NCBI GenBank assembly: GCA_017651515.1
Contig: JAGCCU010000001.1
Coordinates: 1 to 64,000 of the forward strand
Direction: 5' to 3'
Source: Muribaculaceae bacterium
GTDB taxonomy: Bacteria > Bacteroidota > Bacteroidia > Bacteroidales > Muribaculaceae
DNA: 64,000 bases
The translations under genes and the position numbers were made by a program. Positions 4,130 through 61,649 of this stretch are shown piece by piece. Under the pieces are notes generated by a model, which worked only from the letters and a program-made list of their open reading frames with translations, did no database searches and had not been told where the DNA came from. Numbering within the stretch: position 1 is the first letter of the stretch; every line of letters starts with the position of its first letter.

Positions 4130-4151
4130 CAAAAAATTCATAGGTCTAAGA

Positions 4152-18637: not shown

Positions 18638-18688
18638 CAAAATTACTTCATCAGCACAAGAATAAATAACAATCTCGTATCAAAAGAT
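18638..18688 (-). promoter_or_regulatory. Promoter with shared operator box for the GH3-GH2 unit
   Basis: On the minus strand the -7 element TAATTTTG lies at 18645-18638. The box ATCTTTTGATACGAGATTG runs from 18688 to 18670, with its first 8 bases ending 35 nt before the -7. No good -33 TTTG is seen, which fits an activator-dependent promoter. Compare 20704-20754, 24490-24540, 31504-31554 and 41161-41211. Confidence 0.6.
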
Positions 18689-18724
18689 AAAAAAAAGAGC
18701 TTGCCCCAAATGGAGCAAGCCCTC
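18689..18724 (-). terminator. Rho-independent terminator of the CBM-module gene
   Basis: On the minus strand GAGGGCTTGC pairs with GCAAGCTCTT across a short loop (18724 down to ~18697), followed by a run of eight U (18696-18689). It ends the gene at 18759-20657 and abuts the operator of the next promoter. Confidence 0.8.
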
Positions 18725-18758
18725 ACTCTAACTGAATATATTGTTGCGTATGTTATGA

Positions 18759-20657
18759 TTACTTCACAATCTTAGTTACCTTGTTGCCTTCGATCACGAT
18801 GTTAATGCCCTCGAATGGACGATCGCTCACCTGGCCCATGGTATTGACATACTTCACTGGAACGTTGCCAGCTACGTTGATGTCGGTTACTGCAGTAGAT
18901 AATTCAGCCTCAATAGTAACATTTACTGTTACAGCTTCAGCTGGCATCTCAAATGTATAAGTGTCGTCACCGTTGTCAACTACATCTACCGAAGCACGAC
19001 CTCCTTCAGCAGTAGTCACAGTAACTTCAGCCACCTTGAAACCATCGGCGGGAGTAACAACCACGGTTACTTCAGTGCCTTCGGCAACTTCGTCACCGCT
19101 TTCGATGGGCTCGTTGTCAACCAGCACCTCAACAGTAGCATTCTCCAACTCAGCCTCGAAGTTGATTGCGCTCTTCACAGTGGGAGCGGGGCCATCTAGA
19201 TAGATATCCTTAACATTGGCACCATCTGATGCAGTATATATAATGTATAGGTTGTGAACGCCAGTCACCTCGCTCAGGTCGCCCTTAGTGGTATATTCGT
19301 TGCCCCAGCCTCCTGTAGCTTGCATCCATACTGTAGCGATGGGTTCTACATCGGCAAATGCAGCCTGGGCTTCACCCCAGTTTACGCCTTCTTCGTTAAG
19401 ATCGATATAGAACTTGAAGTTTGCATCATTTATATATCCTAACCAGCTGCTGCCGGTAGCGTGATTTACGAGAATTTCGTTGAATCGGCCGTCTTCGAAG
19501 TCAACATCGGTAATCTTGAGAACTGTGTGACCACCGGTCCAACCAACGTTATTATCTTCCCATTGGCCTTGATTCAAAATAGTGGTACGACCGCTATCGC
19601 GACCTATGTAAACCACATTGTCTGCTTGGGTCCCATTAAATTCATTACGGAATGAGTAGCGCACAGCGTTCTCGCTTGGCTGTTCGTTTATTTTATTCAA
19701 TATCACGGGGTCAACAATATTACCTAAAGAGTAGAGATAATCTTTCACAAAATGAACGTTGGCGATGTTGCAGCTGCCACCATGCCACTTCAGATAAATG
19801 GTGTGTGTGCCACTAATTGCCTCAATATTGCGGGCAAGATAAAGTTTATCTTTAACGTCGATACCACACCATACGTTGGCAATCTTGTTTGCATCGCTAT
19901 TATAGTCATCGATGTAGACATCTACACTGTGGTTGGTCTGGTCACCTTGCCAGTGCGAAGCCAGCTCGAGTACAACCTGTTTGTAGTCACCATTACCGAA
20001 GTCCAGAGTACCATAAGTTACGATGACGCCTTCTCCGGTCCAGCCCCAAGAACCATTATCAATGCGAGTTTCAGGATTAGAGGAATAAACCAGCGTAGAA
20101 TTATTGATGTCGAGCACAGTAGCCATGTCGGCATATCCATCCCAGTTGCACGGCTCCTTGAGCATCGAGCCGTCCTGGAACTGTTCAGCTGTGAACTCTT
20201 CGGTGTAGAAACGCACATCCTGAATATTACCTGCGCGGCCTTCAAAGCTCAAGAATACTTTATGAATACCTTCAGGAAGTACCTCACCGAAATTGGCAGC
20301 TATCGAACGGAAGTTGGTATAACTGTCATGAAAATTAATGAGATCAATGCGACACAGTTCTTCAGCGGTTTCCAAATCATCGCCAACTGAGAGAATAGCC
20401 TGGCCGCCTCCGCCCCATCCATTGGCGAAACGAATGCTTGCAGCCTTGTAAACATCTCCTTGTCCGAAATCAACTTCACCTACTTGGATTTTAGTGTTTT
20501 CATTGGTGTTGCCAATAAAACAACCAAGTGGATTGAACTTACCATTTTCAAGTATGACGGCACCATCATTAGCTCCCATTTGGAAGGTCAGTGTCTCGGC
20601 TTGTGCGGTGAGCGTCATAGCTGCCGCAACTGCCAAAAAAGTAAAAATCTTTTTCAT
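18759..20657 (-). CDS. Secreted multi-module carbohydrate-binding protein, no catalytic domain
   Basis: 632 aa. A signal peptide (1-20) is followed by three CBM6/CBM35-like beta-sandwich modules (about 22-155, 165-310 and 330-490). Each has an F/W-rich 'VDFGNG...YKxVxLxxA' strand pattern and a closing 'GxHxxYLxF.G..gNIxxVxF' motif. Next come an InlB/Big-type repeat (~500-590, ending MPAEAVTVNVTIEAE) and a C-terminal tail (KYVNTMGQVSDRPFEGINIV...KIVK) like a T9SS sorting domain. It is a likely surface glycan-binding protein. Closest relative in the window is 22647-24440. It is monocistronic, with its own promoter and terminator. I cannot assign a ligand. Confidence 0.72.
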   Translation of the reverse strand: MKKIFTFLAVAAAMTLTAQAETLTFQMGANDGAVILENGKFNPLGCFIGNTNENTKIQVGEVDFGQGDVYKAASIRFANGWGGGGQAILSVGDDLETAEELCRIDLINFHDSYTNFRSIAANFGEVLPEGIHKVFLSFEGRAGNIQDVRFYTEEFTAEQFQDGSMLKEPCNWDGYADMATVLDINNSTLVYSSNPETRIDNGSWGWTGEGVIVTYGTLDFGNGDYKQVVLELASHWQGDQTNHSVDVYIDDYNSDANKIANVWCGIDVKDKLYLARNIEAISGTHTIYLKWHGGSCNIANVHFVKDYLYSLGNIVDPVILNKINEQPSENAVRYSFRNEFNGTQADNVVYIGRDSGRTTILNQGQWEDNNVGWTGGHTVLKITDVDFEDGRFNEILVNHATGSSWLGYINDANFKFYIDLNEEGVNWGEAQAAFADVEPIATVWMQATGGWGNEYTTKGDLSEVTGVHNLYIIYTASDGANVKDIYLDGPAPTVKSAINFEAELENATVEVLVDNEPIESGDEVAEGTEVTVVVTPADGFKVAEVTVTTAEGGRASVDVVDNGDDTYTFEMPAEAVTVNVTIEAELSTAVTDINVAGNVPVKYVNTMGQVSDRPFEGINIVIEGNKVTKIVK

Positions 20658-20703
20658 GTTCTGAATTTTTTAAGTTAACAAAAAACAATAAAATCATCTG
20701 TGG

Positions 20704-20754
20704 CAAAGTTACTTGTGATAATTGTAAACAAATAAAACTCTCGTTTCAAAAAAT
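20704..20754 (-). promoter_or_regulatory. Promoter with shared operator box for the 632-aa CBM protein
   Basis: Minus-strand -7 element TAACTTTG at 20711-20704. Operator ATTTTTTGAAACGAGAGTT runs from 20754 to 20736, 35 nt separating its first 8 bases from the -7. A TTTG at 20732-20729 is a poorly spaced -33 (17 nt). Confidence 0.65.
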
Positions 20755-20771
20755 AGAAAAATCATTTCCAT

Positions 20772-22571
20772 TTATTGTATTCTGAGTATAATATTTATAA
20801 TGGCGTTTACATCATCCACATCCACAATGCCGTCACCAGTCAAGTCGTAGTCCGAATGCCATTCGGTTATGCCTAAGATGGCATTGATAATTGCATTGAC
20901 ATCGTCAATATCTACAAGCCCGTCGCCATTAACATCGCCTTGCAAATGCTGCTGATCTTTTGTGAGCCCTAATAGTAGTGTCACTACCGATCGTGCGGGT
21001 ATCTCAACTTCTTGCCCCGACACATAGGTCTCTGGCAAATTGCGATCAAAATGTAAAGCCAAACTTTCACTTGTGGTATATTTCTTTATAGTTGATATAA
21101 CGCGACCATCATCGGCTTCGGCCGTCAGCGTCACTGTGCTTGGAGAATTAGCCATGTTAACATATACCACTACTACTTCATTGCCATCGGGTGAAACATA
21201 AGCTGATCCCATAAGTGCGTTAAGGTTGTCGGCTCCACTTAGTTCCACCCGTGTGTAACCTGGACGGATGAAACGAGAGTAATTGCCTAGTACCCAAAGA
21301 TTGCGGTTGTCCAAAATAGTGCCGCCGTTTGTCAAATCGCCGTAACTCTCTGGGCCGGAATCACCATTAGCTAATACACGCAACAGATAGAAACGGTTTT
21401 TCTGCCCCCACTGTTCTTGTGCAAATGCTGTCCAATAGCTCCACGACGATGCGTTGGCATAAACCATATCACAATAGATCACTTTGCCCATATATAGCGC
21501 AATATCCATATAGGTAGCTTCTTCGTAACCTCCTGAGGGGAAGCCAGCGCTGGCAGTGGGTGGCTCGTCAAGCATACTCCATTCAGTTTGGTAGACTTGT
21601 ACGCCCATCTGGGCGGCAGCTGTAGCTACGGCAGTACGACGATTGACAAGTTCTGTGTTAGTGCGAAAAGTCCAGTAACTATGCCCTGCCACTGCATTAG
21701 CCACATGAGCCAGATTGCCTACATAAGTTGAAGTTTGCGATGGGTTGAAAAACTGGTTTATCTGATCGTAGCCATAGTTGTTGATAATAGCATTTGACTC
21801 AGTCAGATAGTTCCATTTCCCTGCTTCGGGAATAAGTATTTTTGTTGATAAACCATGGCGTGTGAGTGCTTCATCAAGTTCCTTAACGAGCTGTGTGACT
21901 TCGGTGTTATACCACGGAGAGCCCTCTTGCCCACTTGTCCACTCATATTGCGGCTCATTGACAGGTGATATATATGAAATGGGATATCCCAAGTCAACGA
22001 AATGCTTAGTCACAGTGGCCATATACTCGGCAAAATCATCGTAGGCATCATCGCGCAGGTTGGCACCCCAAGGAAGCATATTAACTTTATTGGCCTTGCC
22101 ATTGGCTGTATAATAAATAGGTGCCGAATTTGAGAAAAACAGGATGTTCTCTACTCCATAATCCAAGGCTTTCTGCATGAAATACTGCTGGCCTGCAGAG
22201 TGTGACCAGTTATATGTAACGCCATCATCATTAAGATAGCACTCAGTGCGGCGAGTGGGATCATCGATATTGCTATCACTGCCCTGTGTTGCACTGCCTG
22301 CTCCCAGATTAACACGCCAGTTGCTAAGGCCGATGCCTTCGGGATTCCCTCCACGGTCAAACGAACGCGCGAAGAGCATTTTAGCTGCACGTTCTTTCAT
22401 GGTTGATGAGAAATAGCGTCCCACATAATCTCCCAACCAGCAGTCTGACGCACCAAAATCGACTATTACCTGATGTGTTCTATCGAGCCGTACAACCGTA
22501 GCTGACGGATCAGCTAACAGTGTTGTAGCCACCACTACCAAGATGCAACATAGAAGCAAGTATCGTTTCAT
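20772..22571 (-). CDS. GH30 endo-1,6-galactanase-like enzyme with C-terminal dockerin-like repeats
   Basis: Secreted GH30 (599 aa): signal peptide (1-20), (beta/alpha)8 barrel beginning VDFGASDCWLGDYVG, with acid/base Glu206 (ISPVNEPQYEW) and nucleophile Glu330 (VYQTEWSML). The GNPEGIGLSNWRVNLGAGS block is typical of proteins annotated endo-beta-1,6-galactanase. The C-terminal beta domain is followed by two EF-hand-like dockerin repeats (GDVNGDGLVDIDDVNAIINA and DLTGDGIVDVDDVNAIINI). It starts 17 nt after a hairpin downstream of the 597-aa CBM gene and has no clear promoter of its own, so it may depend on read-through from 24490. Likely target is a galactan such as arabinogalactan side chains (inference). 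Confidence 0.82.
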   Translation of the reverse strand: MKRYLLLCCILVVVATTLLADPSATVVRLDRTHQVIVDFGASDCWLGDYVGRYFSSTMKERAAKMLFARSFDRGGNPEGIGLSNWRVNLGAGSATQGSDSNIDDPTRRTECYLNDDGVTYNWSHSAGQQYFMQKALDYGVENILFFSNSAPIYYTANGKANKVNMLPWGANLRDDAYDDFAEYMATVTKHFVDLGYPISYISPVNEPQYEWTSGQEGSPWYNTEVTQLVKELDEALTRHGLSTKILIPEAGKWNYLTESNAIINNYGYDQINQFFNPSQTSTYVGNLAHVANAVAGHSYWTFRTNTELVNRRTAVATAAAQMGVQVYQTEWSMLDEPPTASAGFPSGGYEEATYMDIALYMGKVIYCDMVYANASSWSYWTAFAQEQWGQKNRFYLLRVLANGDSGPESYGDLTNGGTILDNRNLWVLGNYSRFIRPGYTRVELSGADNLNALMGSAYVSPDGNEVVVVYVNMANSPSTVTLTAEADDGRVISTIKKYTTSESLALHFDRNLPETYVSGQEVEIPARSVVTLLLGLTKDQQHLQGDVNGDGLVDIDDVNAIINAILGITEWHSDYDLTGDGIVDVDDVNAIINIILRIQ

Positions 22572-22587
22572 TGTTTTTTTTCAAAAT

Positions 22588-22625
22588 GAATTACGCAAGC
22601 TCCATTACAGATGCTTGCGTAATTC
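22588..22625 (-). terminator. Perfect 13-bp hairpin between the CBM gene and the GH30 gene
   Basis: GAATTACGCAAGC (22588-22600) pairs with GCTTGCGTAATTC (22613-22625) around a 12-nt loop. On the minus strand it follows the 597-aa gene by about 20 nt but has only a weak U-tract (ATTTTG) afterwards. It may be a partial terminator or a 3'-end processing hairpin setting the ratio of the two products. Confidence 0.55.
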
Positions 22626-22646
22626 CTAATTATAATTTGAAATGAA

Positions 22647-24440
22647 TTAATTGACTTTTTTCAAAATTATATTGATTACAGCGTTCACGTCTTCAACGTC
22701 AATAATGCCGTCACCAGTTATGTCGGAATTGCCAGGATATTCGTCGGCAGTCTTGACTTTAAGGATGATATTGATTACGGCGTTCACATCTTCAACGTCA
22801 ACGATATTATCGCCTGTAACATCTCCAGTTGTGAGTTGAGGGGCTCCACTGTTGGGATCCAGCCAGATGTCGAACACGTTTGCGCCAGTGCTCGAACTTG
22901 GAGTGTTGTAAACCATGAACAAGTCGTGTTTGCCAGTAACATTCACAAGGAACTCACCTGCAGTGCGTTTGCGTACGCTCCATGCTCCTGTTCCTTGGAG
23001 ACGCACCACAGCGATTGGCTCATGTCCTTCAAGAATAGCGGGCAAGTTCTGTTCCCAGTCTTCTGGTGTGTATGTGAAATCTGGATCAAGGTCAAGATAG
23101 AATGAGAAGTTCGAACGGTCAATGTCGCCAATCCATGATGGCTCACTCGAGTGGTTCACAATAATGCGCTTCCAGCCGCCTTCGCCAAAGTCAACTCCTT
23201 CACCGTCACCATAGAAGTCAATCACAGTACCATTTCCAGTGTAGCCGATGTTACCGGCTGCTTCATACTGCCCGTGGCACATCACCTGATATCCCCAAGG
23301 ATCACCTTGTCCTTCTGGACAATTTAAGAATGTAAAGTGGAAAGCGTCGGGCGATGGCTCAACGTCTTCAAGAACGACACCGCAATCTACGTGCAGAGGC
23401 CACAACTCTTGCTCGCAGAACTCAACAGCCTGCAAGTTGGTGCTACCACCAAGCCACTTAACAATTACACGGTGTTGACCAGTTATGTTGGGAAGATTCT
23501 TGGCGAAAGGATATGGACCATTATTGCCCAAGTCGAGACCTGACCATACGGTGAGAAATTTGTTGGCTGGAGTAGCGTCGTCAAGGTAGAACTCCAGATA
23601 ATCGTAGATGTTTGATGCCCAGTGGGTCATGTAGAGGATAATCTGTTTGTACTTACCATTGTCGAAATCGATAGTGCCATAGTCGGCAATGAAACCTTCA
23701 TGGGTCCATCCCCAGGCATTATGTCCAGCTGCCGATGTGTCGATGCGTGTGTCAGGGAAATCTGTACCCTCACCGATTGGCACCAGTGGTTCAGAGTCGA
23801 TTGAATAAACCTTGGTCGAAATCAGCTCATAGCCAGGCTTCTCATTTGGATCCAACAGACGGATGCCGCTGTCCCAATCACTCTCGTCGTTCACAAAGTC
23901 GGAAGGGAGCAAAGCATTCTCATAGAAATTGATTGCACGGATGTTACCTGCACCGCCCACGAATGTCAGCCAAACTTTCTTCTTGCCAGTTGGCTTGGTG
24001 AAAGTAATGCCTTCCATGGCAGGACCACCGCCCGACAACTCACTTGGGTCAACTGCATTATAAGCCATGTTTGCTGCGAACACGCGATAAAATTGGTAAC
24101 CGCCAGTCTCATTGATACCCATCTGAGTGAATGGTTCAGAAGACTCATAAGTGTCACCTGCATGTAAGATTGCCCATCCGTCGACATACCATCCATTACC
24201 TAGAATGATACCAGTTGCTTGGAAGTTGTCACCAGTGGTTCCGAAGTCCACTTCACCGAGATACACGCGAGTGTTCGCACTGGTATTACCAATGTTCTGA
24301 TTCAGGCGGTCAAACACACCGTCCTGCTCAATTACGACTCCGCTGTTCTCGTTGGTCTGAATAACCAGATTACTTGCCTGTAGCGCCATGGGAGCTATAA
24401 ACGCTGCAAAGGCTGTCATTAATGTAAAGATTTTTTTCAT
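22647..24440 (-). CDS. Secreted multi-module carbohydrate-binding protein with dockerin-like tail
   Basis: 597 aa. A signal peptide (1-22, ending LQAS) is followed by three CBM6/35-like modules (~23-175, 200-345 and 350-530), parallel to those in the 632-aa protein: VDFGTTGDNFQATGIILGNGW matches its paralogue's VDFGQGDVYKAASIRFANGW. There is no recognisable active site. Residues ~540-597 are two dockerin-like repeats (GDVTGDNIVDVEDVNAVINI and DITGDGIIDVEDVNAVINI) in place of the paralogue's InlB repeat and T9SS-like tail. Probably a surface or extracellular glycan-binding scaffold. Promoter at 24490; the GH30 gene follows. Confidence 0.72.
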   Translation of the reverse strand: MKKIFTLMTAFAAFIAPMALQASNLVIQTNENSGVVIEQDGVFDRLNQNIGNTSANTRVYLGEVDFGTTGDNFQATGIILGNGWYVDGWAILHAGDTYESSEPFTQMGINETGGYQFYRVFAANMAYNAVDPSELSGGGPAMEGITFTKPTGKKKVWLTFVGGAGNIRAINFYENALLPSDFVNDESDWDSGIRLLDPNEKPGYELISTKVYSIDSEPLVPIGEGTDFPDTRIDTSAAGHNAWGWTHEGFIADYGTIDFDNGKYKQIILYMTHWASNIYDYLEFYLDDATPANKFLTVWSGLDLGNNGPYPFAKNLPNITGQHRVIVKWLGGSTNLQAVEFCEQELWPLHVDCGVVLEDVEPSPDAFHFTFLNCPEGQGDPWGYQVMCHGQYEAAGNIGYTGNGTVIDFYGDGEGVDFGEGGWKRIIVNHSSEPSWIGDIDRSNFSFYLDLDPDFTYTPEDWEQNLPAILEGHEPIAVVRLQGTGAWSVRKRTAGEFLVNVTGKHDLFMVYNTPSSSTGANVFDIWLDPNSGAPQLTTGDVTGDNIVDVEDVNAVINIILKVKTADEYPGNSDITGDGIIDVEDVNAVINIILKKVN

Positions 24441-24489
24441 ACCTTTAATTATTTAAAGTTAAACTTGTATTTCGGAATTTTATCATTTG

Positions 24490-24540
24490 CAAAGTTAAAC
24501 TTAAGTATATAAACAAAATAAAACAATTGTTTCAAAAAAT
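24490..24540 (-). promoter_or_regulatory. Promoter with shared operator box for the 597-aa CBM protein and GH30
   Basis: Minus-strand -7 element TAACTTTG at 24497-24490. Operator ATTTTTTGAAACAATTGTT runs from 24540 to 24522, again 35 nt from its first 8 bases to the -7. This is the best match with the 20704 copy (first 12 bases identical). Confidence 0.65.
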
Positions 24541-24604
24541 GGAAATTTTGAACAATATAATGCCAATGATGTAAAACATCAAAGTTCTAAAGACTATATA
24601 TGAC

Positions 24605-26560: not shown

Positions 26561-26577
26561 ATAACCGTTTTATTTAA

Positions 26578-29481: not shown

Positions 29482-29485
29482 TTTG

Positions 29486-31465: not shown

Positions 31466-31503
31466 AATGTCGACTATTTATAAATACATTTTTATCAATG
31501 ATG

Positions 31504-31554
31504 CAAAATTACTGTTTACTATTTCCACTCTATAACTCAATTGTCGCAATTAAT
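31504..31554 (-). promoter_or_regulatory. Promoter with a degenerate shared operator box for the propeller-GH2-esterase operon
   Basis: Minus-strand -7 element TAATTTTG at 31511-31504. The box ATTAATTGCGACAATTGAG (31554 to 31536) is a weaker match to the ATTTTTTGAAAC consensus but sits at the identical 35-nt distance and shares ACAATTG with the 24490 copy. Confidence 0.5.
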
Positions 31555-31576
31555 AACAAAATAATCTCCTACATTG

Positions 31577-32602
31577 TTACAGTGCCCAAGAATCGAGCCA
31601 TGGGATAGTCATAGTGTCGCCATCAAAATGGATGGGCAACCATACGTAGCGTGATGTTATGAGATCCTTTTTGTTCCAGCGATCAAACATCATGATATAT
31701 TTGTCGGTACCTTCTATAGGGATTACAAATGTCGATTGGGAATAGAATGTTTTGTCGGCATGGAGCCCCTGGCAAGGATTGCCCATAGTAGTGTAAGGCC
31801 CCATTACATTATCCGCTACTGCCCACTCTGCTTCGTTTGGATCCCAACCTGTGCAACCCGACGTGATTATATAGTATTTTCCACCTCGCTTGAATACTGC
31901 AGGTGCTTCACGCGACTCACCTATAAACTGACGAGTGTAGTTAGAAGTCACGTGACGATAATCATCACTGAGCATTGCAATGTGGATGGTGGTGTTATTC
32001 TCCGAAGAATAGAACAAATAGGCCTTTTGGTCATCGTCTTTAAACAATGTCATATCCCGACTCATCTGCCCATTTGGACGTCCAGACTCAATGAAACGGA
32101 ATTTGCCGTTAGGCGTATCACAAACTGCTACTCCAGCCACAGCCTTCTCGTAATTGTGATTATCTATGTGCATCCACATTACAAACTGATGTGTGGTGGC
32201 ATTGTAGATAACTTTTGGCCGCTCAATGACCATGGTGGGATGAATATCCGAAAAAGTGTGTAATGTGTCGGGCTCAAGCACTATACCCTCATATTTCCAG
32301 TTGCACAAATCGCGTGATGAGTAACACGCCACTCCACCGGCATCTGTTCGATAGCAATCCCATCCCACGCCTGGCGAGCGGTAAGTATAGTCACCCTTTG
32401 CCTCGCCATACCAATAGTAAACACCTTCATGATATAGAACCCCTCCACCATGCGCATTTATGAACATTCCATCATTATCAAGCCATTCGGCTCCGGGGAC
32501 AATGACGCCAGTGGCTAATGCAGGCAGAACAGATGCCAATGCAAAAAGCCACATCCCCAACTGTTTGATAACACTATACTTCATTGATTTCATTTTTGTC
32601 AT
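31577..32602 (-). CDS. GH43-family glycosidase (subfamily 24/34-like)
   Basis: Exported five-bladed propeller enzyme (341 aa) with a signal peptide (to about residue 30). The opening block INAHGGGVLYHEGVYYWYGE is characteristic of GH43_24/34 proteins, where the usual catalytic-base Asp of the first blade is absent. RPKVIYN, MSRDMTLFKDDD and REAPAVFKRGGKYYIITSG provide the conserved Asp and Glu. Characterised relatives include exo-beta-1,3-galactanases and arabinofuranosidases acting on arabinogalactan. The gene overlaps the 3' end of the hybrid two-component gene by 29 nt, or 11 nt if it starts at Met7 (32584), so the two are co-transcribed. Confidence 0.82.
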   Translation of the reverse strand: MTKMKSMKYSVIKQLGMWLFALASVLPALATGVIVPGAEWLDNDGMFINAHGGGVLYHEGVYYWYGEAKGDYTYRSPGVGWDCYRTDAGGVACYSSRDLCNWKYEGIVLEPDTLHTFSDIHPTMVIERPKVIYNATTHQFVMWMHIDNHNYEKAVAGVAVCDTPNGKFRFIESGRPNGQMSRDMTLFKDDDQKAYLFYSSENNTTIHIAMLSDDYRHVTSNYTRQFIGESREAPAVFKRGGKYYIITSGCTGWDPNEAEWAVADNVMGPYTTMGNPCQGLHADKTFYSQSTFVIPIEGTDKYIMMFDRWNKKDLITSRYVWLPIHFDGDTMTIPWLDSWAL

Positions 32603-35600
32603 TCTTTTTTATTTCATCTCGCAACTGTCGTTGCTGTTTTTCGAATTCCTTTGGAGTCATCCCAAATTGTTTTTGGAACAATTTAATAAAATATGAGGGA
32701 GAATTGATACCGACCAAGTAACACACTTCACCGACACGATAACTACCTTCACTAATTAGCTCGGATGCTTTCTTGAGTCGAACCATGCGAATAAAATCGG
32801 TGGGTGAAGTGTCACTGATAGCTTTAATTTTACGGTGTAGGCTTGAGCGGCTCATGCATACCAGTTCTGATAGCATTTCCACACCGAAATTAGTGTTGTC
32901 GATGTTTTCCTCAATAACTTCTACAATACGATCCATCAATTTCTCATCAGCCTTGCTCATACCTATTGTCTGAGTAGGAACGAAAGGCTTACGCATGAAC
33001 GCATCCATACCACGACGTCGATTCTCAAATATTGAAATAATCTGTGCTAACAGATACTTAAACGCAAATGGTTTTTCTATATATGCATCAGCACCTATCT
33101 GTAGACCTGTGACTTTGCTATTAAGGTCATTCTTTGCTGTAAGTAGTATAACAGGTATGTGACTCAATTCGATGTCTTCTTTTATACGTCGGCAAAGTTC
33201 TAGTCCATCCATCTCGGGCATCATAATGTCGCTTAATACAAGATCAACATTCTTTTCCATAAGCAACTCCATAGCCTGAACTCCATTTTGTGCAGTTTCT
33301 ACCGCATAGTTGTTACGCAACTTGTCGGCTATCAGATTAAGCATTTCAACATTGTCTTCGACAAGTAGTATTAGAGCCGATTGTAATGACTCAGGAACAA
33401 TATCGTCGTCAGCAATAATCATTTCATCGGAGAGGGGAGTCACTTCAATCTTCTTTTCCTCTTTAATCATCTTGAGTAAAAACCTATTGAGACCTTGGTG
33501 ATCATCATAGGTAAGCGAGCCTCCCATCATCTCGGTGAGCGATCGTGCCAGATAGAGTCCAATGCCTGAACTTGATAGTGCATTCTCATTTTTTTGTAGC
33601 TGATAAAATGGAGTGAATATCTTTTCGCGTTCAGTGAGTGGAATTATGGGACCATCATTTTCGAAATGGGCCATCACATAATTGTTTTCAACGCTTAACG
33701 AAATCATGAAGTCTTTTTCTGAATACTTAAGAGCATTGGAAAACAGGTTGTTAAGCACTTTTATCAGCGCATTGCGGTCGGCTCTTACATATAGGTCGTC
33801 ACCATCTGGCAAAGCTAAAGTTACATGGCGTTCTTTTGCCAGAGGCATATCGCTAAACTTTTTCACCCATTCACGCAAAATGCTGGATAAATTCACCGAG
33901 ACTAAATGCATATCCATCTTGTTGCTGTCCATTTTGCGGAAATCAAGCAACTGATTAATGAGGTTCATTAAGTCGTTGGTATTACGGCTCATCGTATTAA
34001 GATTGCGACGTATTTCTGGGTCGGCAATTGACATTTCCTGTAGGTTCTCAAGCGGCCCGTTAATAAGTGTCAGCGGTGTGCGAATTTCGTGAGCAATGCT
34101 AGTGAAAAAGTCTATTTTGTTCTGATACAGTTCTTTTTCCTTTTCGGCTTCAAAAAGACGTTGTGCCTCAAAGGTCTTTTGCAAGGTACGCTTTTTATAT
34201 ACGTTAAATACACCATATATTGCAGCTCCCAATAGTGATAAATATGCTAACCAAGCCCAAATGGAATTCCACCATGGCGGCAAAACAACTATTTCGAGCG
34301 TAGCTTCTTCTTTGCACCACACCCCATCATTGTTGGAACCCTTGACGTGGAAGACATATTTCCCCGGGGCTAGATTGCCATAGGACACTCGCTGGCTTTT
34401 GTCAGCAGCTATCCAGTTATCATCGATACCATCCATTTTGTAATAATATTGGTTGGCATGAGGTAAAACATAACTCAGGGCTGTGAACTCCAGAATTATA
34501 TTTGACTGGTCATGGCTTAGCTCAATCCGTTTGGTTGATAGCATACTCTCTGTTAACAATGAGTTCTCTTGGTTTGGAAGCACTTCATTGTTGTTAATCC
34601 ATAATCGTGTTATATAGACTGGAGGAGCATAGGTGTTCTTGTTATTATCATAGGGATTAAACGAGATGAGACCTTCGCTGCTGCCAAAGTAGAAAGTACC
34701 ATTACGGGTTTTAAGTGCCGATTTATAATTAAACTGATTGCCAGGCAGTCCATTACTTGTGGTATATACTTGGCACTTGCCTGTGGTGGGATTTAGTTTG
34801 ACCAGACCGTTGTTGGTGCCAAACCACAACATCCCGTTGCGGTCTTCAAGAATTTTGTAACCGGTATCATCGGGCAGCCCTTGCTCAATACTGAATGTTG
34901 TGAATGTATTGTTGTTTTTATTGAAACGACATACTCCACCACGATCGGTAGAGAACCAAATCTCGCCCCTGCTTGTTTCAATCACATTGCTCACCGAATT
35001 GGAGCTGATTGTGGTGGAATCGCCTTCTTCGTGTATAAAATGTTTGATCTGATGGTTCTCTGGAGTATAGCGATAGACTCCATTACCCATTGTCACTACC
35101 CAAATGTTATGCTCGCTGTCTTCCATCAGGTCGTAGATGTAATGAAATCCGAATTCATCCATTCGTTTGAACTCCATGCTGCCTTTTGAGGCAACGTATA
35201 CGCCCCAGCCATTACCAATCCACACGTTACCCTGCGAATCTTCGCACATGGCGTAAATGCTATATTCGTTTATATGGAGCGTCTCGCCCGTGTAGTGACG
35301 TGTTTGATATGTAGTTGGTGAAACAATATCAAGACCATCTTTGAAGAAGCCCACCCACATATGGCTGTCACAAGGCATTATGGCGAGGATTTTTTCGCTA
35401 TGCAGCGACGAGCCGAAGTCTTTTCCCAGCACTTTAAAAGTGCCAGTGTTTGGGTTGTAAATATTAATGCCTGAATCATCGGTGCCAATCCATACATTAC
35501 CTTGAGCATCTTCGGCCATTTCACGAATGCGCTTACTCGATATAGTAAATGGCTTAGTGAGCGGAACATATCGCATAAACTCCATGCCTTTCTGAGGCAA

Positions 35601-36605
35601 ATAGTTTACACCACCTAAATTAGTACCTATCCAAATTCCTCCTTCGCGGTCACGGTAGATTCGGCCTATCTGATTGTCAGTTAACGAATAGGCACACATA
35701 GCATCATTCTCAATGTGCTGTATTGTTCCTTGATGCTCATTTATCACATAGACTCCTCGTTGCGTACCTACCCATAATTCTTCATTATAGCATTTCACAT
35801 CACGAATAATGGAATAGTGAACCTCGGGAGCGTTGAAGTCAGAGACTGTGTTACTACGTTTATTTAGCCTACGCAACTTACCTTCATGTATTCCCAGCAC
35901 CAAATCATCTCCATAATCACACATTGAGTAGATATTTTCTCCTTCAAGTGTGTTGCCGTCTTTATTGCCAAGATACTGTACGAATTTGTCCTGAACTTTA
36001 TTATATAAAAAAACGCCGCTGCCATTAGTCCCCACCCATAGTCGGCCGCTATTATCTAAGCACATGCATTGAGGATTGCCGAAATCGGGATGGTTCGAAC
36101 TGCCAAACGAATACATGCGCAACTTTTCGCCATTTTTATAACGGAATAAGCCCTGATTTGGCACTACTATCCAGATTTGACCATCTGAGTCACTCTTTAT
36201 GTCGGCCACCCAATCCAGCATTTGTGTGCCTTGGGGTGTTTTTTCATCCACAAAACGGAACTGCTCGGTTGTTGAATTATAAATAAACACACCCTTGTCT
36301 GTGCCCACCCACAGCTTCTGTTCGCTGTCTTCGAAAATTGAAGAGATATTGTTGTTTTTTTTGCCAGCCTTCGTGTCAACACAATCAAACACCCTTATTG
36401 TATGGCCGTCATATCGGTTAAGACGGTTGCGAGTGCCAAACCACATAAAACCTCGACTATCCTGCAGTATGGCTTTTATGTCGGTTTGTGAGAGACCGTC
36501 GTTTTTGTTTATGCTCCTGAAATAGTATTTATATGGGTAGTTTTGGGCGTTTGAAATGCCCGTAAATGCCAATATAATCAATAATATAAAGTTTATCCTT
36601 TTCAT
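32574..36605 (-). CDS. Hybrid two-component system regulator (HTCS), sensor kinase and AraC-type activator in one chain
   Basis: Membrane-bound sensor-regulator (1343 aa) typical of Bacteroidetes glycan loci. Signal peptide (1-20); two seven-blade Reg_prop propellers with 'GxMWFGTxxGL' repeats (~25-690); Y_Y_Y domain (~690-770); TM helix (~778-798); histidine kinase with phospho-acceptor His839 (AHEIRTPL), N-box NLFSNALKYS and G-box SSGIGLYLARS; receiver domain with phospho-acceptor Asp1126 (LSDIMMPEMDG); AraC-type HTH (~1235-1335, SPSYFIKLFQKQFGMTPKEF). It should bind an oligosaccharide in the periplasm and activate nearby operons; the operator box at five promoters is the natural candidate target. 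Divergent from the GH2-GH92 operon. Confidence 0.95.
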   Translation of the reverse strand: MKRINFILLIILAFTGISNAQNYPYKYYFRSINKNDGLSQTDIKAILQDSRGFMWFGTRNRLNRYDGHTIRVFDCVDTKAGKKNNNISSIFEDSEQKLWVGTDKGVFIYNSTTEQFRFVDEKTPQGTQMLDWVADIKSDSDGQIWIVVPNQGLFRYKNGEKLRMYSFGSSNHPDFGNPQCMCLDNSGRLWVGTNGSGVFLYNKVQDKFVQYLGNKDGNTLEGENIYSMCDYGDDLVLGIHEGKLRRLNKRSNTVSDFNAPEVHYSIIRDVKCYNEELWVGTQRGVYVINEHQGTIQHIENDAMCAYSLTDNQIGRIYRDREGGIWIGTNLGGVNYLPQKGMEFMRYVPLTKPFTISSKRIREMAEDAQGNVWIGTDDSGINIYNPNTGTFKVLGKDFGSSLHSEKILAIMPCDSHMWVGFFKDGLDIVSPTTYQTRHYTGETLHINEYSIYAMCEDSQGNVWIGNGWGVYVASKGSMEFKRMDEFGFHYIYDLMEDSEHNIWVVTMGNGVYRYTPENHQIKHFIHEEGDSTTISSNSVSNVIETSRGEIWFSTDRGGVCRFNKNNNTFTTFSIEQGLPDDTGYKILEDRNGMLWFGTNNGLVKLNPTTGKCQVYTTSNGLPGNQFNYKSALKTRNGTFYFGSSEGLISFNPYDNNKNTYAPPVYITRLWINNNEVLPNQENSLLTESMLSTKRIELSHDQSNIILEFTALSYVLPHANQYYYKMDGIDDNWIAADKSQRVSYGNLAPGKYVFHVKGSNNDGVWCKEEATLEIVVLPPWWNSIWAWLAYLSLLGAAIYGVFNVYKKRTLQKTFEAQRLFEAEKEKELYQNKIDFFTSIAHEIRTPLTLINGPLENLQEMSIADPEIRRNLNTMSRNTNDLMNLINQLLDFRKMDSNKMDMHLVSVNLSSILREWVKKFSDMPLAKERHVTLALPDGDDLYVRADRNALIKVLNNLFSNALKYSEKDFMISLSVENNYVMAHFENDGPIIPLTEREKIFTPFYQLQKNENALSSSGIGLYLARSLTEMMGGSLTYDDHQGLNRFLLKMIKEEKKIEVTPLSDEMIIADDDIVPESLQSALILLVEDNVEMLNLIADKLRNNYAVETAQNGVQAMELLMEKNVDLVLSDIMMPEMDGLELCRRIKEDIELSHIPVILLTAKNDLNSKVTGLQIGADAYIEKPFAFKYLLAQIISIFENRRRGMDAFMRKPFVPTQTIGMSKADEKLMDRIVEVIEENIDNTNFGVEMLSELVCMSRSSLHRKIKAISDTSPTDFIRMVRLKKASELISEGSYRVGEVCYLVGINSPSYFIKLFQKQFGMTPKEFEKQQRQLRDEIKKNDKNEINEV

Positions 36606-36633
36606 CTAAAAATGACTTAAAATATAACACTTG

Positions 36634-36641
36634 CAAAATTA
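36634..36641 (-). promoter_or_regulatory. Possible -7 element for the HTCS gene
   Basis: TAATTTTG on the minus strand, 29 nt upstream of the HTCS start. A CAAAAAAT (operator core in minus orientation) occurs at 36667-36674, but at 25 nt from the -7 instead of 35, so it is not counted as a clear member of the operator set. Confidence 0.4.
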
Positions 36642-36780
36642 ATACTTATTGTCAAAATAGATATTTCAAAAAATAGCAATTTGGTAGTAAAAAGTGTCAA
36701 GTTTAATGCAAAATAATGTATCGCGCACGATTCTTATATATTAATGGACGAAAATTATTTTTAATCACAATAATTAGAAG

Positions 36781-36788
36781 TATTTTTG
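36781..36788 (+). promoter_or_regulatory. Promoter -7 element for the GH2-GH92 operon
   Basis: TATTTTTG matches TAnnTTTG and lies 18 nt upstream of ATG-36807. No shared operator box is found at the expected place (36738-36745). Confidence 0.5.
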
Positions 36789-36806
36789 CGCAATAATAAA
36801 CTAATT

Positions 36807-38822
36807 ATGTATCTCAGGATTTACATCGCATTTTTATCTTTCATTTTAACCGCGGCAGTTGGAGCGGCACGTACAAGTGTTCCTCTGGTCAATGGCTGGT
36901 CGTTTGCCAAGGTTGAAGGTGAAAAAACTTATCAGTGGGAAAATGTTGCCATTCCACACACATGGAATGATGCCGACGGAACGACACCTAATTATTACCG
37001 TGGCAAGGCTGCGTACCGTTGTCGTTTTGATGCGCCACCTGTACAATTGCACACACAGCGCACTTTTGTGCGATTTGAGGCCGTAAGCCAAGATGCAACG
37101 GTGTGGCTAAACGGCAAGAGGCTTGGGAGACATCAAGGCGCTTTCACTGCATTTTGCTATGAGATTACACATGTTTTAAAAGAGAAAAATAACGAACTTG
37201 TTGTAAAAGTTACCAATGCTGCTGACAGCCTTGTCATGCCTCTAGAGGGTGACTTCACCATATTTGGTGGCATTTATCGTCCTGTGGCTCTGCTAATCTT
37301 GCCAAATGTGTGCTTCACTCCACAAGACTTTGCTTCATGTGGCATATATGTGAGTCAGAGTAAAGTTAACAACGAAATTGCGCATCTCAACATTATAGCC
37401 AAAGTAGATGGGGCAAAAGATAGTGACGGCCCTTATGGGCTTCGTACAACCGTTTTTGCTCCCGAAGGTCATATTGTGGTTACTGCGACCAACAGCAATT
37501 CAGTCAAAGATGGCTCTTTTCTGACTCTAAATCAATCCGTTGATATTTCAAATCCACAGTTGTGGGGCGGCGTCGGCAATCCTGCAATGCACCGCTTCTT
37601 CTTTGAACTTATTCATAACGGGCAAGTAATCGACACCTTGTCACAAAATATAGGTGTAAGATACTTTGAAGTTAATCCACATCAAGGCTTCTTTTTGAAC
37701 GGAAAGGAATTTCCTCTGAGAGGAGTGAATCGCCATCAAGATCGCGATGGTATGGGGTGGGCGATAACTCATCGTGAGCATTGTCAAGATATGGAACTTA
37801 TTAAGGAAATCGGAGCCAATTGCATTCGCCTTGCTCACTATCCACATTCCGATGAATTCTACACCTTGTGTGATGAAGCAGGTATGCTAGTGTGGGCAGA
37901 GATACCATATATTGGGCATGGTACACGTCATTATGCGTTTGATGCCAACGCACGGCAGCAGCTAACCGAACTCATTCGTCAAAACTATAATCACTGCTCA
38001 ATATTTTGCTGGAGCTTATTTAACGAATTGGGAGGCTCGGGCAGGCCCCATGAACTAGTAGAGCAGCTAAATGAACTAGCCCACCGTGAAGACCCCACGC
38101 GACTAACCGTAGCTGCCGCCAACAATGATGGCAGGCCAGAGAATGATATGACCGACATAATGGCTTATAACACGTACCCTGGCTGGTATTGGGCTGACCC
38201 TGGCACCATGCAATGGGCCATCGATTGGAAATATGACCCAAATAAAAACCGTGCGATAGGAATCAGCGAGTATGGTGCTGGGGCAAGTATTAATCAGCAT
38301 GACCAGCACATTGTCAAGGCTCCGAAGACCGATGGAAGCTGGCATCCAGAGGAGTGGCAAGCGCTCGTTCATGAAGGCAATTACCGTGAAATAAGAAAGC
38401 GTCCGTATGTTTGGGGATCATTTGTGTGGAATATGTTCGACTTTGCCAGTGCATCACGCCACGAAGGGGACAGGCAGGGCATTAATGACAAAGGACTTGT
38501 GACCTATGACCGCCAGACACGTAAAGATGCATTCTATTTCTATCAAGCCAATTGGTCGAAAAAGCCTATGATTCACATCACTAGCAAGAGGCACACTACA
38601 CGCAACGAAGCCTTAACTGATATCAAGGTATATAGCAATTGCCCTGAAGTAAGTATTGAGGTTAATGGCAAATACGTGCATGTTGAAAGGCTAGAACATT
38701 GCATATTTGTGGCACACGACGTGAAACTCACAAGCGGCGAGAACCAGATTGAGGCTTTTGGCATCACGACAGATAATGATGTAGCGATAACCGATAAATG
38801 TAGTTGGACTCTTAACAACTGA
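36807..38822 (+). CDS. GH2 beta-galactosidase/beta-glucuronidase-type glycosidase
   Basis: Exported retaining glycosidase (671 aa from ATG-36807; the frame is open 21 nt further up, but that part overlaps the promoter). Signal peptide (~1-20), sugar-binding domain (NGWSFAKVEGE, RFEAVSQDATVWLNG), immunoglobulin domain, and TIM barrel opened by RGVNRHQDRDGMGWA. The acid/base Glu is in CWSLFNELGG and the nucleophile Glu in IGISEYGAGAS, both intact. It is compact compared with lacZ. It precedes GH92 by 5 nt. Confidence 0.9.
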   Translation: MYLRIYIAFLSFILTAAVGAARTSVPLVNGWSFAKVEGEKTYQWENVAIPHTWNDADGTTPNYYRGKAAYRCRFDAPPVQLHTQRTFVRFEAVSQDATVWLNGKRLGRHQGAFTAFCYEITHVLKEKNNELVVKVTNAADSLVMPLEGDFTIFGGIYRPVALLILPNVCFTPQDFASCGIYVSQSKVNNEIAHLNIIAKVDGAKDSDGPYGLRTTVFAPEGHIVVTATNSNSVKDGSFLTLNQSVDISNPQLWGGVGNPAMHRFFFELIHNGQVIDTLSQNIGVRYFEVNPHQGFFLNGKEFPLRGVNRHQDRDGMGWAITHREHCQDMELIKEIGANCIRLAHYPHSDEFYTLCDEAGMLVWAEIPYIGHGTRHYAFDANARQQLTELIRQNYNHCSIFCWSLFNELGGSGRPHELVEQLNELAHREDPTRLTVAAANNDGRPENDMTDIMAYNTYPGWYWADPGTMQWAIDWKYDPNKNRAIGISEYGAGASINQHDQHIVKAPKTDGSWHPEEWQALVHEGNYREIRKRPYVWGSFVWNMFDFASASRHEGDRQGINDKGLVTYDRQTRKDAFYFYQANWSKKPMIHITSKRHTTRNEALTDIKVYSNCPEVSIEVNGKYVHVERLEHCIFVAHDVKLTSGENQIEAFGITTDNDVAITDKCSWTLNN

Positions 38823-38827
38823 CAACA

Positions 38828-41074
38828 ATGAAACGACTGTTTTTTGTAACTATTAGCTTAATATTGTTTTTGGGCAATACGCAGGCCAGGTCGCTCACCG
38901 ACTATGTGAACCCATTCATCGGTACCGCTGTAAAAGGCGAAGGAGGGACAGCACCATTTGTGGGGCCGCCACATGCCATGACAAAGATGATGCCTCAGAC
39001 TCGTGAAAACAAGATGGGCACCATGGCCTACGTTTACGACGATACCCACTTGATGGGGCTAATGGCTTCGCATCAGCCCACTGTGTGGATGGGTGATTAT
39101 GGCTACGTAAGCATAATGCCTCAACAGGGTGAACGCATACTGACGTTACCCAATGAGCGTAAACTTCCATTTAGTCACAAGAATGAACAGGGCTCACCAT
39201 ATTTCTATAGTGTTTCTCTGGATTCACAAGAAGGGAAACAAATGAGTGTTAAGATGACTGCTTCGAGCAGATGTGCTTTGCTTCAATTTACATTCGAACC
39301 GGCTGCTCATTCTCGAATAGTAGTGCAAGGCATTAACCTCAATCCAGATCTGAGTGATTGGTGTAATGATTATAATGAACGTCTTCGATCGTTGAAGGGG
39401 TGGATAAAAATCGACTTGCAGCATAATGAAATAATAGGATACAATCCTGACCGTCAGTCGGCACAACTGGGACCTCCACTTAATAACTTCAAGGGTTATT
39501 TCGTCATAAGATTTAACAAGCCAATCACATTGTTTGGAACATGGAATCAAAGCGAAATATATTCACAGACAACCGAGCAAGTGGGGACACGTATGGGCGC
39601 TTACGTGGAATTTGCTACTCCCCGCAAGACGACCGTTATAGCACAACTCGGAACATCGTTCATTAGTATAGAACAGGCTCGGGCCAATATGGAACAGGAA
39701 TTGCCACAATGGGACTTTTTCTCTTTGCAAAAATCTACCCATGATAAGTGGGAAGAAAAACTGAGCAAAATTAAGATTGAAGGAGCTAGTCTTGACGATA
39801 AAGTCAACTTCTATACGGCTATGTATCACAGTTATTTATTCCCAAGAGAATTCAATGAGGGCACACGTTACTATAGTGCTTTTGATGATCAGGTGCATGA
39901 CGGCATCAGTCACAACGATTTCTCTTTATGGGACACTTTCAGAGCCTTGCATCCACTTATGACTATACTCGAACCAGATCTCACCTGTAGCTGGATTACT
40001 TCTCTTTTGCAAATGTATCAACAAGGTGGATGGATGCCCATATGGCCTAATCCTTCCTATACTAATATAATGATAGGCACTCATGCTGATGCGGTTATTG
40101 CTGATGCATATATGAAAGGACTTCGCAATTTTGACGTTCGCTTGGCCTACGAGGCTATGCGCAAGGATGCAATGATACCACCTGATGGTGACACTTTCCG
40201 CCGTTATGGCGACCGTGACCGGTGGACTGCATTCCAGGCTCGTGCAGGGGCTAGTTACTATCATACAATTGGATATGTGCCTGACGACAAAACGGCTGAG
40301 TCGCTTTCTCGCACTCTAGAATATGCCTATGATGACTGGTGCGTGGCACAATTGGCAAAAGATTTGGGTTCTGAACGGGATTATCGGCAGCTTATGAACT
40401 GGAGCCAGAATTATCGTAACGTATATAATGCAGATGAAGGATTCATGCTCCCTCGGAAATTTAATGGCGACTGGATTATATTAGACGACCATAATCGACA
40501 GGGACTCACTGAAGGTTCTAAATGGACCTATCTTTTCTGTGTGCTTCACGATATTAAAGGTATGATTGATTTAATGGGTGGAACTGCCAATTTCGCAAAA
40601 AAACTGGATAAAAACTTCAATGAAAACCATTATCGTCACGACAATGAACCTGGACACCACTATATATATCTTTACGATTATTGCGGACAACCTTGGAAAT
40701 GCCAGGAACTGGTGCGTAAGCACACTTCCATAAATTACCGCAACGCTCCTGATGGAATCAACGGCAATGATGATTGTGGACAAATGTCGGCATGGTACAT
40801 TTTTTCGGTAATGGGATTTTACCCTGTAACACCTGGTAGCAACACTTTTGCCTTAGGTGCACCACAGTTTAAGCAAATAACGTTGCATATTGAGCGTAAC
40901 TCCCCACATGACTTGGTCATCAGGGCACAAAACTTATCAGCTGACAATCGTTATGTGGAACGCGTCCTGATTGATGGCAAGCCAATTAATGTAGCCGAAA
41001 TCACATACGATCAATTAATCAATGCTCATAATTTGACCTTTGTTATGGTTGGCCAGCCCCATTTGGAGCAGTAA
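38828..41074 (+). CDS. GH92 exo-alpha-mannosidase
   Basis: Calcium-dependent inverting alpha-mannosidase (748 aa), exported (signal peptide to ~21). Family blocks are YVNPFIGT near the N-terminus, HSYLFPREF, DFSLWDTFRALHPL, DNEPGHHYIYLYDYCGQPWK carrying the catalytic-acid region, and NGNDDCGQMSAWYIFSVMGFYPVTPG with the base Asp pair. All are intact. Terminal alpha-mannose from N-glycans or fungal mannan is the expected product; linkage cannot be predicted by eye. A second GH92 of another subgroup is at 50858. Confidence 0.92.
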   Translation: MKRLFFVTISLILFLGNTQARSLTDYVNPFIGTAVKGEGGTAPFVGPPHAMTKMMPQTRENKMGTMAYVYDDTHLMGLMASHQPTVWMGDYGYVSIMPQQGERILTLPNERKLPFSHKNEQGSPYFYSVSLDSQEGKQMSVKMTASSRCALLQFTFEPAAHSRIVVQGINLNPDLSDWCNDYNERLRSLKGWIKIDLQHNEIIGYNPDRQSAQLGPPLNNFKGYFVIRFNKPITLFGTWNQSEIYSQTTEQVGTRMGAYVEFATPRKTTVIAQLGTSFISIEQARANMEQELPQWDFFSLQKSTHDKWEEKLSKIKIEGASLDDKVNFYTAMYHSYLFPREFNEGTRYYSAFDDQVHDGISHNDFSLWDTFRALHPLMTILEPDLTCSWITSLLQMYQQGGWMPIWPNPSYTNIMIGTHADAVIADAYMKGLRNFDVRLAYEAMRKDAMIPPDGDTFRRYGDRDRWTAFQARAGASYYHTIGYVPDDKTAESLSRTLEYAYDDWCVAQLAKDLGSERDYRQLMNWSQNYRNVYNADEGFMLPRKFNGDWIILDDHNRQGLTEGSKWTYLFCVLHDIKGMIDLMGGTANFAKKLDKNFNENHYRHDNEPGHHYIYLYDYCGQPWKCQELVRKHTSINYRNAPDGINGNDDCGQMSAWYIFSVMGFYPVTPGSNTFALGAPQFKQITLHIERNSPHDLVIRAQNLSADNRYVERVLIDGKPINVAEITYDQLINAHNLTFVMVGQPHLEQ

Positions 41075-41160
41075 TACTTTTCCACATTGCTAGAACCTGC
41101 ATGTGTAATGTTTTTCTAGTTCACTTTGAGAGTGCTAAATCATTGTGAACCGATTTTGCT

Positions 41161-41211
41161 ATTTTTTGGGAGATGCGTGCCATTGATTGTTGACGGTTTA
41201 GAATAATTTTG
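41161..41211 (+). promoter_or_regulatory. Promoter with shared operator box for the 21-kb SusCD operon
   Basis: The -7 element TAATTTTG lies at 41204-41211 and the box ATTTTTTGGGAGATGCGTG at 41161-41179. Its first 8 bases end 35 nt before the -7, exactly as on the minus strand. A TTG at 41183-41185 may serve as -33. The rest of 41075-41229 is without a gene. Confidence 0.6.
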
Positions 41212-43356: not shown

Positions 43357-43375
43357 GAACAAAAATATATTCACT

Positions 43376-44707: not shown

Positions 44708-44742
44708 ATTTACTATTAGCAATCAAGACATATACATTTTCT

Positions 44743-47835: not shown

Positions 47836-47870
47836 TTATTGTATCACCTATCAAAATCAATATATAGATT

Positions 47871-49880: not shown

Positions 49881-49901
49881 TAAATATAAAGCATTACAGC
49901 T

Positions 49902-50831: not shown

Positions 50832-50857
50832 TTTTGGGTTCATTAATATAGTAGAAA

Positions 50858-53107: not shown

Positions 53108-53150
53108 TCTTTTTCCTTTTAACTTTTATCGTATAATTGATTAAAACGCG

Positions 53151-54563: not shown

Positions 54564-54565
54564 TC

Positions 54566-55978: not shown

Positions 55979-55992
55979 TCAAAATAATTGCT

Positions 55993-58542: not shown

Positions 58543-58552
58543 ATTGCTTATA

Positions 58553-58957
58553 ATGATTACATTGAGAATTTACTGCATAATATTATTTCTCTGTAGTTCA
58601 GTATGTATATTTGCCAATGACAATAATGGACTGGAGTTTACTGATACTATTTGCGATTTAGGCTATCTGACTGTGGATGGTGGTAATCGAATTGGCTACT
58701 TTGAATGTATAAATCGCAGCAATTCATCAATCTCAATTGTAGGTGCATTATCAACTTGTGGTTGCACAGTACCCACCTATCCGAAATCACCAATTGAACC
58801 AGGACAAAAAGGTGTTATTACAGTATCCTACGATCCTGCGGGGCGACCTATTGGAGAATTTGAAAAGATACTTACAATAATTACTACAGGTTCTCCTCGA
58901 GAAATAAAACTATATTTAAGAGGAGAAACAATCTCAATTCACTCAACCACATATTGA
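58553..58957 (+). CDS. DUF1573-domain exported protein
   Basis: 134 aa from ATG-58553 (an upstream ATG at 58532 would overlap the GH3 gene). Signal peptide (to ~20), then a single Ig-like DUF1573 domain with the typical CGCTVP and PGQKGVITVSYDPAGRPIGEF blocks. Function unknown; often found as small surface or periplasmic proteins in Bacteroidetes. Embedded in the glycan operon. Confidence 0.75.
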   Translation: MITLRIYCIILFLCSSVCIFANDNNGLEFTDTICDLGYLTVDGGNRIGYFECINRSNSSISIVGALSTCGCTVPTYPKSPIEPGQKGVITVSYDPAGRPIGEFEKILTIITTGSPREIKLYLRGETISIHSTTY

Positions 58958-58990
58958 CTTTTTATGTCATAACTTAATTTCTCAAAATCA

Positions 58991-59962: not shown

Positions 59963-59988
59963 AGTAATAATTATAATAAGTCACGAAT

Positions 59989-61644: not shown

Positions 61645-61649
61645 ATTCA

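Follow-up and report, generated by a model that had tools for sequence, protein, structure and literature searches.

AraC of Escherichia coli binds tandem half-sites about 21 bp apart, the proximal of which touches the -35 element, and it represses its own gene. Operators of hybrid two-component systems (HTCSs) are described in print mostly as predictions in Bacteroides. In Bacteroides thetaiotaomicron, the predicted HTCS motifs are direct repeats with a mean spacing of 21 bp (Ravcheev et al. 2013, PMC3878776), and in the available text of that study autoregulation is mentioned once, for the Crp-like regulator BT4338. The HTCS BT0366 activates its own polysaccharide utilization locus (PUL) and represses distant PULs (Lynch and Sonnenburg 2012, PMC3404733), and the response-regulator parts of the HTCSs BT4124 and BT4663 bind susCD promoters in vitro (Gao et al. 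2024, PMC11253607). The accessible portions of the open-licence literature on HTCS operators and self-control yielded no description of such an operator at the gene of the HTCS itself; those of PMC12125979, PMC11697453 and PMC5967196 hold nothing on HTCS self-control. Here, the first 64,000 nucleotides (nt) of contig JAGCCU010000001.1 from an uncultured gut Muribaculaceae bacterium (GenBank assembly GCA_017651515.1, forward strand; this whole stretch is termed the window) were analysed for a short box that recurs at promoters of a PUL with a resident HTCS gene. Judged from its bases, spacing and conservation, the box is very likely the seam of a tandem-repeat operator for this HTCS, which would activate from 35 nt upstream of the -7 element and more likely block its own gene from 25 nt.

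Structure and register of the operator

The original prediction had placed one box at a fixed distance from five promoters on both strands. All five boxes are present, and in each case exactly 35 nt separate the first 8 bases of the box from TAnnTTTG, the -7 consensus recognised by the primary Bacteroides sigma factor (PMC7366714). The box was real as a seam but had been mis-drawn: the operator is longer and, counted from the first A of the box, runs from about -13 to +25. It consists of two tandem half-sites with the consensus GAGACGATTGTGTTATTT that repeat every 21 bp (about two helix turns), and the seam ATTTTTTGAAAC lies where they meet, taking in the last bases of the distal half-site and the first of the proximal one. 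As a 12-mer, the seam is exact only at 20754 and 24540.

Four of the five operators lie on the minus strand. They precede the CBM6 protein gene (20730..20768, seam 20754, -7 element 20711-20704, with two half-sites spaced by 21 bp), the CBM6-like/dockerin-like gene and glycoside hydrolase (GH) gene GH30 (24516..24554, seam 24540, -7 element 24497-24490), the FG-GAP propeller/GH2/SASA-esterase operon (31530..31568, seam 31554, -7 element 31511-31504) and the GH3-GH2 unit (18664..18702, seam 18688, -7 element 18645-18638). The fifth is on the plus strand before the 21-kb SusCD operon (41147..41185, seam 41161, -7 element 41204-41211), whose first gene starts at 41230. A sixth operator was found at the promoter of the HTCS gene itself (36650..36688, minus strand, seam 36674, -7 element 36641-36634). 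Its box lies 25 nt from the -7 element and is thus 10 bp, about one helix turn, closer. This sixth copy had been missed originally, as had the second half-site and the commonness of TTTTTTG upstream of promoters in this genome. In the operator at 18688, the T-run of an upstream terminator-like hairpin stands in place of the distal half-site, likewise in G003. The hairpin after the CBM6 gene and the GH3 operator share bases (18664-18740, minus strand), and this arrangement is kept in G003.

Operator anatomy was analysed with 39 target sites of 8 genes from 16 loci. Sites were selected by the ATTTTTTG part of the box at gap 35 or 36, allowing one mismatch (two for the FG-GAP gene). Left out of the set were the gap-35 boxes at the HTCS genes of G004 and G133, as well as the GH2 sites of G037 and G093, which have two mismatches. 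Because selection required them, the 8 columns of ATTTTTTG are conserved by construction; the remaining columns were free, and conserved columns extend well beyond the box. Column similarity showed a single peak of 0.108 at lag 21 (shuffled mean -0.001, standard deviation 0.019), a value reached in 0 of 2000 column shuffles. With leave-one-gene-out models, only two positions had positive mean half-site scores, 43 nt (8.2 bits) and 22 nt (3.6 bits) before the T of the -7 element. The proximal half-site at targets spans 36 to 19 nt before this T and overlaps the -33/-35 position. Among 109 TAnnTTTGC cores of the retrieved stretches, exact ATTTTTTG operators excluded, TTG was enriched at gaps 19-20 (9 and 10), and also at gaps 35-36 (12 and 7).

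The register of the box was counted over all 56 TAnnTTTG cores of the window. Five carry a box with at most two mismatches at gap 35, and the next highest count is 4, at gaps 14, 16 and 43 (gaps 10 to 79). With at most one mismatch, 4 boxes lie at gap 35, and no other gap has more than 1. Among 200 Markov-shuffled windows, the maximum at any gap was 4 (11/200) for at most two mismatches and 2 (15/200) for at most one. The bare 12-mer is not enriched in the window (14 matches with at most two mismatches versus 11.5 expected) and was dropped as evidence for this reason.

Specificity and conservation

For the window scan, a matrix was built from 34 sites of relatives, with none from the window. 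It scored the six operators at 36.0 (20754), 33.2 (41161), 30.5 (24540), 25.5 (18688), 24.2 (31554) and 23.1 (36674). No other window site exceeded 12.2, and 20 Markov windows reached at most 18.0. The copy at 31554 had been called weak; it is conserved, and its score is well apart from that of the best non-operator site. Absence of the box from other promoters, likewise claimed before, was found again for the xylose (best score 1.2), atoE (-4.4) and GH2-GH92 (-0.4) promoters; for M48, nothing appeared among the 20 whole-window matches listed. Before GH2, three relatives (G004, G008, L004) have a one-mismatch box at gap 35.

A sequence model (R1) of 32 of the 34 relatives' sites (the 41230 site of G133 and the GH43b site of G051 were omitted) was searched against the source genome, with 150 of 835 first-look candidates scored. 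The top five matches were 20754 (E = 6e-5), 41161 (1.7e-4), 24540 (3.8e-4), 36674 (0.0039) and 31554 (0.028). A bipartite pattern hit this genome 3 times when one mismatch was allowed, each time in the window, and 7 times when two were allowed, 5 of them in the window; with at most three mismatches there were 22 in all versus 8 for the reversed pattern. Across 297 family genomes, the exact 35-nt pattern occurs in 11/11 that hold an orthologue of the first SusCD-operon gene (at least 55% identity) and in 28/286 others. At least two exact copies were present in 10/11 versus 2/286. An exact copy lies in the syntenic contig in 8 of the 11; in G093, G214 and G193, exact gap-35 copies lie elsewhere, and their locus sites have gap 36, are one mismatch away or lack the final C. 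R1 was also searched against 20 genomes. Eight of them have the locus, and their best E-values, obtained largely on training sites, ranged from 1.6e-5 to 7.0e-4; the other 12 reached 0.0035 at best, and two of these had no match at all. Weak R1 matches were taken as background, because 18/20 genomes have some match at E up to 1.

One box equal in sequence and spacing was found before an unrelated gene. This only other exact gap-35 copy of the genome (C29:37989-38041) precedes a long membrane-protein-like gene (judged by eye). It equals the locus copies as a bare box but not as an operator: nothing in the surrounding 5.5 kb scores above 6.7, and that maximum is not at the box. Candidates on C29, C24 and C66 were rejected as off-locus operators; the C24 box scores 5.9, and the three hits listed for each of the C29 and C66 stretches do not include the box. 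Beside more distant HTCSs, 31 loci gave six weak operator hits (best E 0.012), which are not claimed as operators. Two of the weak hits, L045:14597-14629 (E 0.012) and L006:15360-15395 (E 0.078), lie at, or shortly past, the 3' ends of distant HTCS genes and are perhaps related operators.

The locus is wholly or partly syntenic in 15 other contigs from at least four genera. Ten of these loci were found via the first gene of the SusCD operon and five (G003, G004, G008, L004, L020) via the HTCS, so that the latter contain an HTCS by selection. An HTCS orthologue is present in 8/8 SusCD-found loci that span the HTCS position; G214 and G090 end before it. Over the 16 loci, ATTTTTTG with at most one mismatch stands before TAnnTTTG 34 times at gap 35, 7 times at gap 36 and 12 times at gap 25, and at most 2 times at any other gap from 15 to 60. 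In these counts a box in a longer T-run may count twice (GH2 of G008 at 35/36, HTCS of G133 at 34/35), and two gap-35 boxes are without an assigned gene. All 12 gap-25 boxes precede HTCS genes. The 41161-type operator is kept at gap 35 or 36 in 13/13 loci holding that promoter, and box and register stay while spacers and flanks diverge between species. Footprinting in syntenic loci of other species and genera, together with the relatives-only model, thus bore out the proposal of a regulon that joins two opposed gene clusters. G193 has two copies of the 41230-type gene on contig C12 (120118-122226 and 166752-168908), about 45 kb apart; boxes close by, at gaps 35 and 36, point to a larger regulon in this genome.

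The regulator and its own promoter

The HTCS gene (32574..36605, minus strand) encodes a Reg_prop propeller, Y_Y_Y, HisKA, HATPase, receiver and HTH_18 domains on a single polypeptide. Its product is the only Y_Y_Y-domain (PF07495) protein detected in the 87%-complete genome. Among 33 scanned window proteins, the only other DNA-binding family is represented by an NrtR/AraR-like protein (4065-4892), which is encoded beside the xylose genes and outside the block shared with relatives. The HTCS is indirectly well supported as the binding protein because of the 21-bp tandem repeat, its position as sole detected Y_Y_Y protein, the synteny and the operator at its own promoter. The original suggestion of the HTCS as likely activator has thereby gained indirect support as regards binding; its activating role is one that we infer. 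The operator set is real and conserved and represents a well-supported HTCS regulon, of which the operator shift at the regulator's own gene is the unusual part.

Gap 25 occurs in 12/14 loci that include the HTCS promoter. The box lies at gap 35 in G004 and, less clearly, as a one-mismatch box in G133. At the HTCS promoter a strong half-site is located 33 nt before the T of the -7 element (11.4 bits). For the second half-site, 12 HTCS promoters were scored with a proximal half-site model built without HTCS promoters. The offset +21 gave the best mean among 73 offsets other than 0 (2.1 bits), and every offset except 0 and +21 had a negative mean. A second half-site upstream (-21) was rejected in favour of +21. 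The proximal half so placed ends 8 nt before the -7 element, compared with 18 nt at targets.

In the proposed mechanism, a sugar ligand would trigger phosphorylation of the HTCS, and the AraC-type domains of the phosphorylated protein would bind the two half-sites side by side. Class-II AraC-type activators have a half-site in the -33/-35 place and recruit polymerase in this geometry. At the five promoters, the proximal half-site would take the place of the -33 element and, since it ends 18 nt before the -7 element, bound HTCS would recruit polymerase. At the HTCS gene (with its GH43), where only 8 nt are left, bound HTCS would more likely block polymerase and thus create negative feedback. 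That the HTCS may repress its own gene from the 25-nt position is the least certain step of this explanation. Tentatively, one HTCS might read the operator register as a switch, with 35 nt activating the glycan locus and 25 nt shutting its own gene. On this still tentative proposal, negative feedback would be kept across genera, with lineages such as G004 in the activating register.

Several results weigh against this explanation. The combined half-site model gave a slightly higher score to a position 2 nt away from the main offset (0.7 versus 0.28). The proximal half-site is weak at some targets and scored below 0 in 9/39, with the window's five all positive (5.8-16.4). In the genome-wide search the 18688 copy came seventh (E 0.70), below an off-locus site at C80:17978-18011 (E 0.23). 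The named -7 elements are matches to the consensus TAnnTTTG, and the related loci share ancestry, so their gap counts are not independent. The HTCS is one of seven HTH_18 proteins in the genome, of which about 13% may be missing. At HTCS promoters, +21 was singly best in only 2/12 and its mean is weak; in the window's own HTCS promoter two other offsets outscore it (3.9 and 3.0 versus 2.0). The gap-35 HTCS boxes of G004 and G133, which are in the activating position, speak against universal self-repression.

Competing explanations were weighed against the same data. The box might be only a general T-rich promoter feature of Bacteroidota, spaced by helix turns. TTTTTTG is common upstream of TAnnTTTGC: three genomes (the source genome G000, G191 and G022) have 59, 54 and 31 matches versus 2 each for the reversed control. 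In the source genome the gaps cluster at 20-21, 30-35 and 41-43. Pooled gaps (n = 144, own genome and locus operators included) peak at 20, 32 and 42-43, roughly every 11 bp, with a shoulder at 35-36 (16/144, 5 of them operators of this locus), and exact gap-35 copies occur in the 28 family genomes without a close SusCD first-gene orthologue noted above. TTTTTTG was rejected as a unique mark of the regulon because of this commonness, and the tests therefore rest on bases outside the T-run, the exact register and other species. The gaps in the syntenic loci, however, are 25, 35 and 36, not 20, 32 and 42-43; conserved half-site bases fall outside the T-run; and the relatives-only model sets the six promoters apart from the rest of the window. 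A general feature is thus very unlikely and already largely excluded. Irrespective of this, a T-rich element can apparently be positioned one or two helix turns further upstream than the -33 place. It is still less credible that the five boxes arose by recent duplication of one promoter, in which case their likeness would not bear on function. The GH3 and the two CBM6-like promoters do have a longer stretch in common, but half-sites and spacing persist while spacer and flank sequences vary from promoter to promoter and from species to species.

A further possibility is a real operator whose binding protein is a different regulator, of the AraC type or unknown, so that the HTCS plays an indirect role or none. 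The six other HTH_18 proteins of the genome leave room for this, yet strong operators are nearly confined to the locus of the HTCS, whose orthologue accompanies all SusCD-found loci that reach its position and whose promoter itself has an operator, and the tandem layout with its 21-bp period agrees with published HTCS motifs. Binding by another regulator is therefore improbable. A far more serious alternative, although still short of an even chance, is that the operator at the HTCS gene activates (positive feedback) or only serves as a high-affinity store. It would accommodate the gap-35 boxes at 2/14 HTCS promoters (that of G133 with one mismatch), the weak proximal half-site, and the displacement by 10 bp, about one helix turn, which keeps the helix face. 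The proximal half ending 8 nt before the -7 element leaves scant room for polymerase, and the gap of exactly 25 is kept in 12/14 loci; both points favour repression by the HTCS over activation or storage.

The two-sided locus and comparison with described systems

The source genome (2.49 Mb, 85 contigs, 87% complete) contains the window as contig C48. One two-sided PUL spans 11.5 to 62.6 kb of the window (51 kb). Its minus-strand arm comprises GH2, GH3, CBM6, GH30, CBM6-like, SASA esterase, GH2, FG-GAP, GH43 and HTCS genes. The GH3-GH2 unit (18608-11512), the CBM6 protein gene (20657-18759), the CBM6-like/dockerin-like gene (24440-22647) with GH30, and the FG-GAP propeller/GH2/SASA-esterase operon (31465-24605) lie downstream of the operators at 18688, 20754, 24540 and 31554, respectively. 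The GH43 gene (31577..32602, minus strand) overlaps the 3' end of the HTCS gene and is therefore probably co-transcribed with it. The HTCS gene adjoins susC/susD and glycoside hydrolase genes; the closest named HTCS match is 84% identical and comes from the Muribaculaceae metagenome-assembled genome RGIG8902.

The plus-strand arm contains GH2, GH92, a 708-amino-acid protein without Pfam match, TIG/NHL, SusC and SusD, followed by a BT_3044-like protein, GH92, two GH30, GH3, mannose-6-phosphate isomerase, phosphoesterase and GH43. The SusCD operon (41230..62585, plus strand), a presumed co-transcribed unit, would be controlled by the 41161 operator. Its first gene (41230-43356, plus strand) encodes the 708-amino-acid protein, which matched no Pfam or NCBIfam model at E 0.001 and has relatives at E 1e-80 or better in 31/297 family genomes, its own included. 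GH92 and mannose-6-phosphate isomerase suggest a mannose-containing glycan; with GH30 and GH43, several substrates are conceivable. Weak dockerin type I matches near the Pfam cut-off were seen at three C-termini (20772-22571 and 22647-24440 on the minus strand, 59989-61644 on the plus strand). Outside the PUL, a C69 peptidase match is divided between the adjacent reading frames 1791-2333 and 2340-3878 (plus strand), the second of which ends with DUF6377.

For an HTCS outside Bacteroides, the locus adds a set of operators with precise positions across several genera, and it ties both arms of the two-sided PUL to one sensor. Two predictions go with this reading: the spacing to the -7 element would itself belong to the operator code, and an HTCS may control its own level. 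AraC of Escherichia coli is a one-component regulator that acts by looping, whereas the HTCS here is a two-component hybrid, and no evidence of looping was found at its locus. For BT4124 and BT4663, neither a self-operator nor a spacing rule was seen in the available text, from which the terms 'direct repeat', 'tandem' and 'autoregul' are absent (PMC11253607). With BT0366, the present system would share activating and repressing effects of one HTCS, of which repression here is a predicted effect; BT0366 represses other PULs, whereas the candidate repressed gene here is the regulator's own (PMC3404733). The present operators also resemble those of Ravcheev et al. (PMC3878776): in both, an AraC-type HTCS is encoded beside a SusCD locus, and tandem direct repeats spaced by about 21 bp were found by footprinting. 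The operators described here differ from those in belonging to Muribaculaceae, in their motif, in their fixed distance to the -7 element, and in the copy at the regulator's own promoter that lies 10 bp closer.

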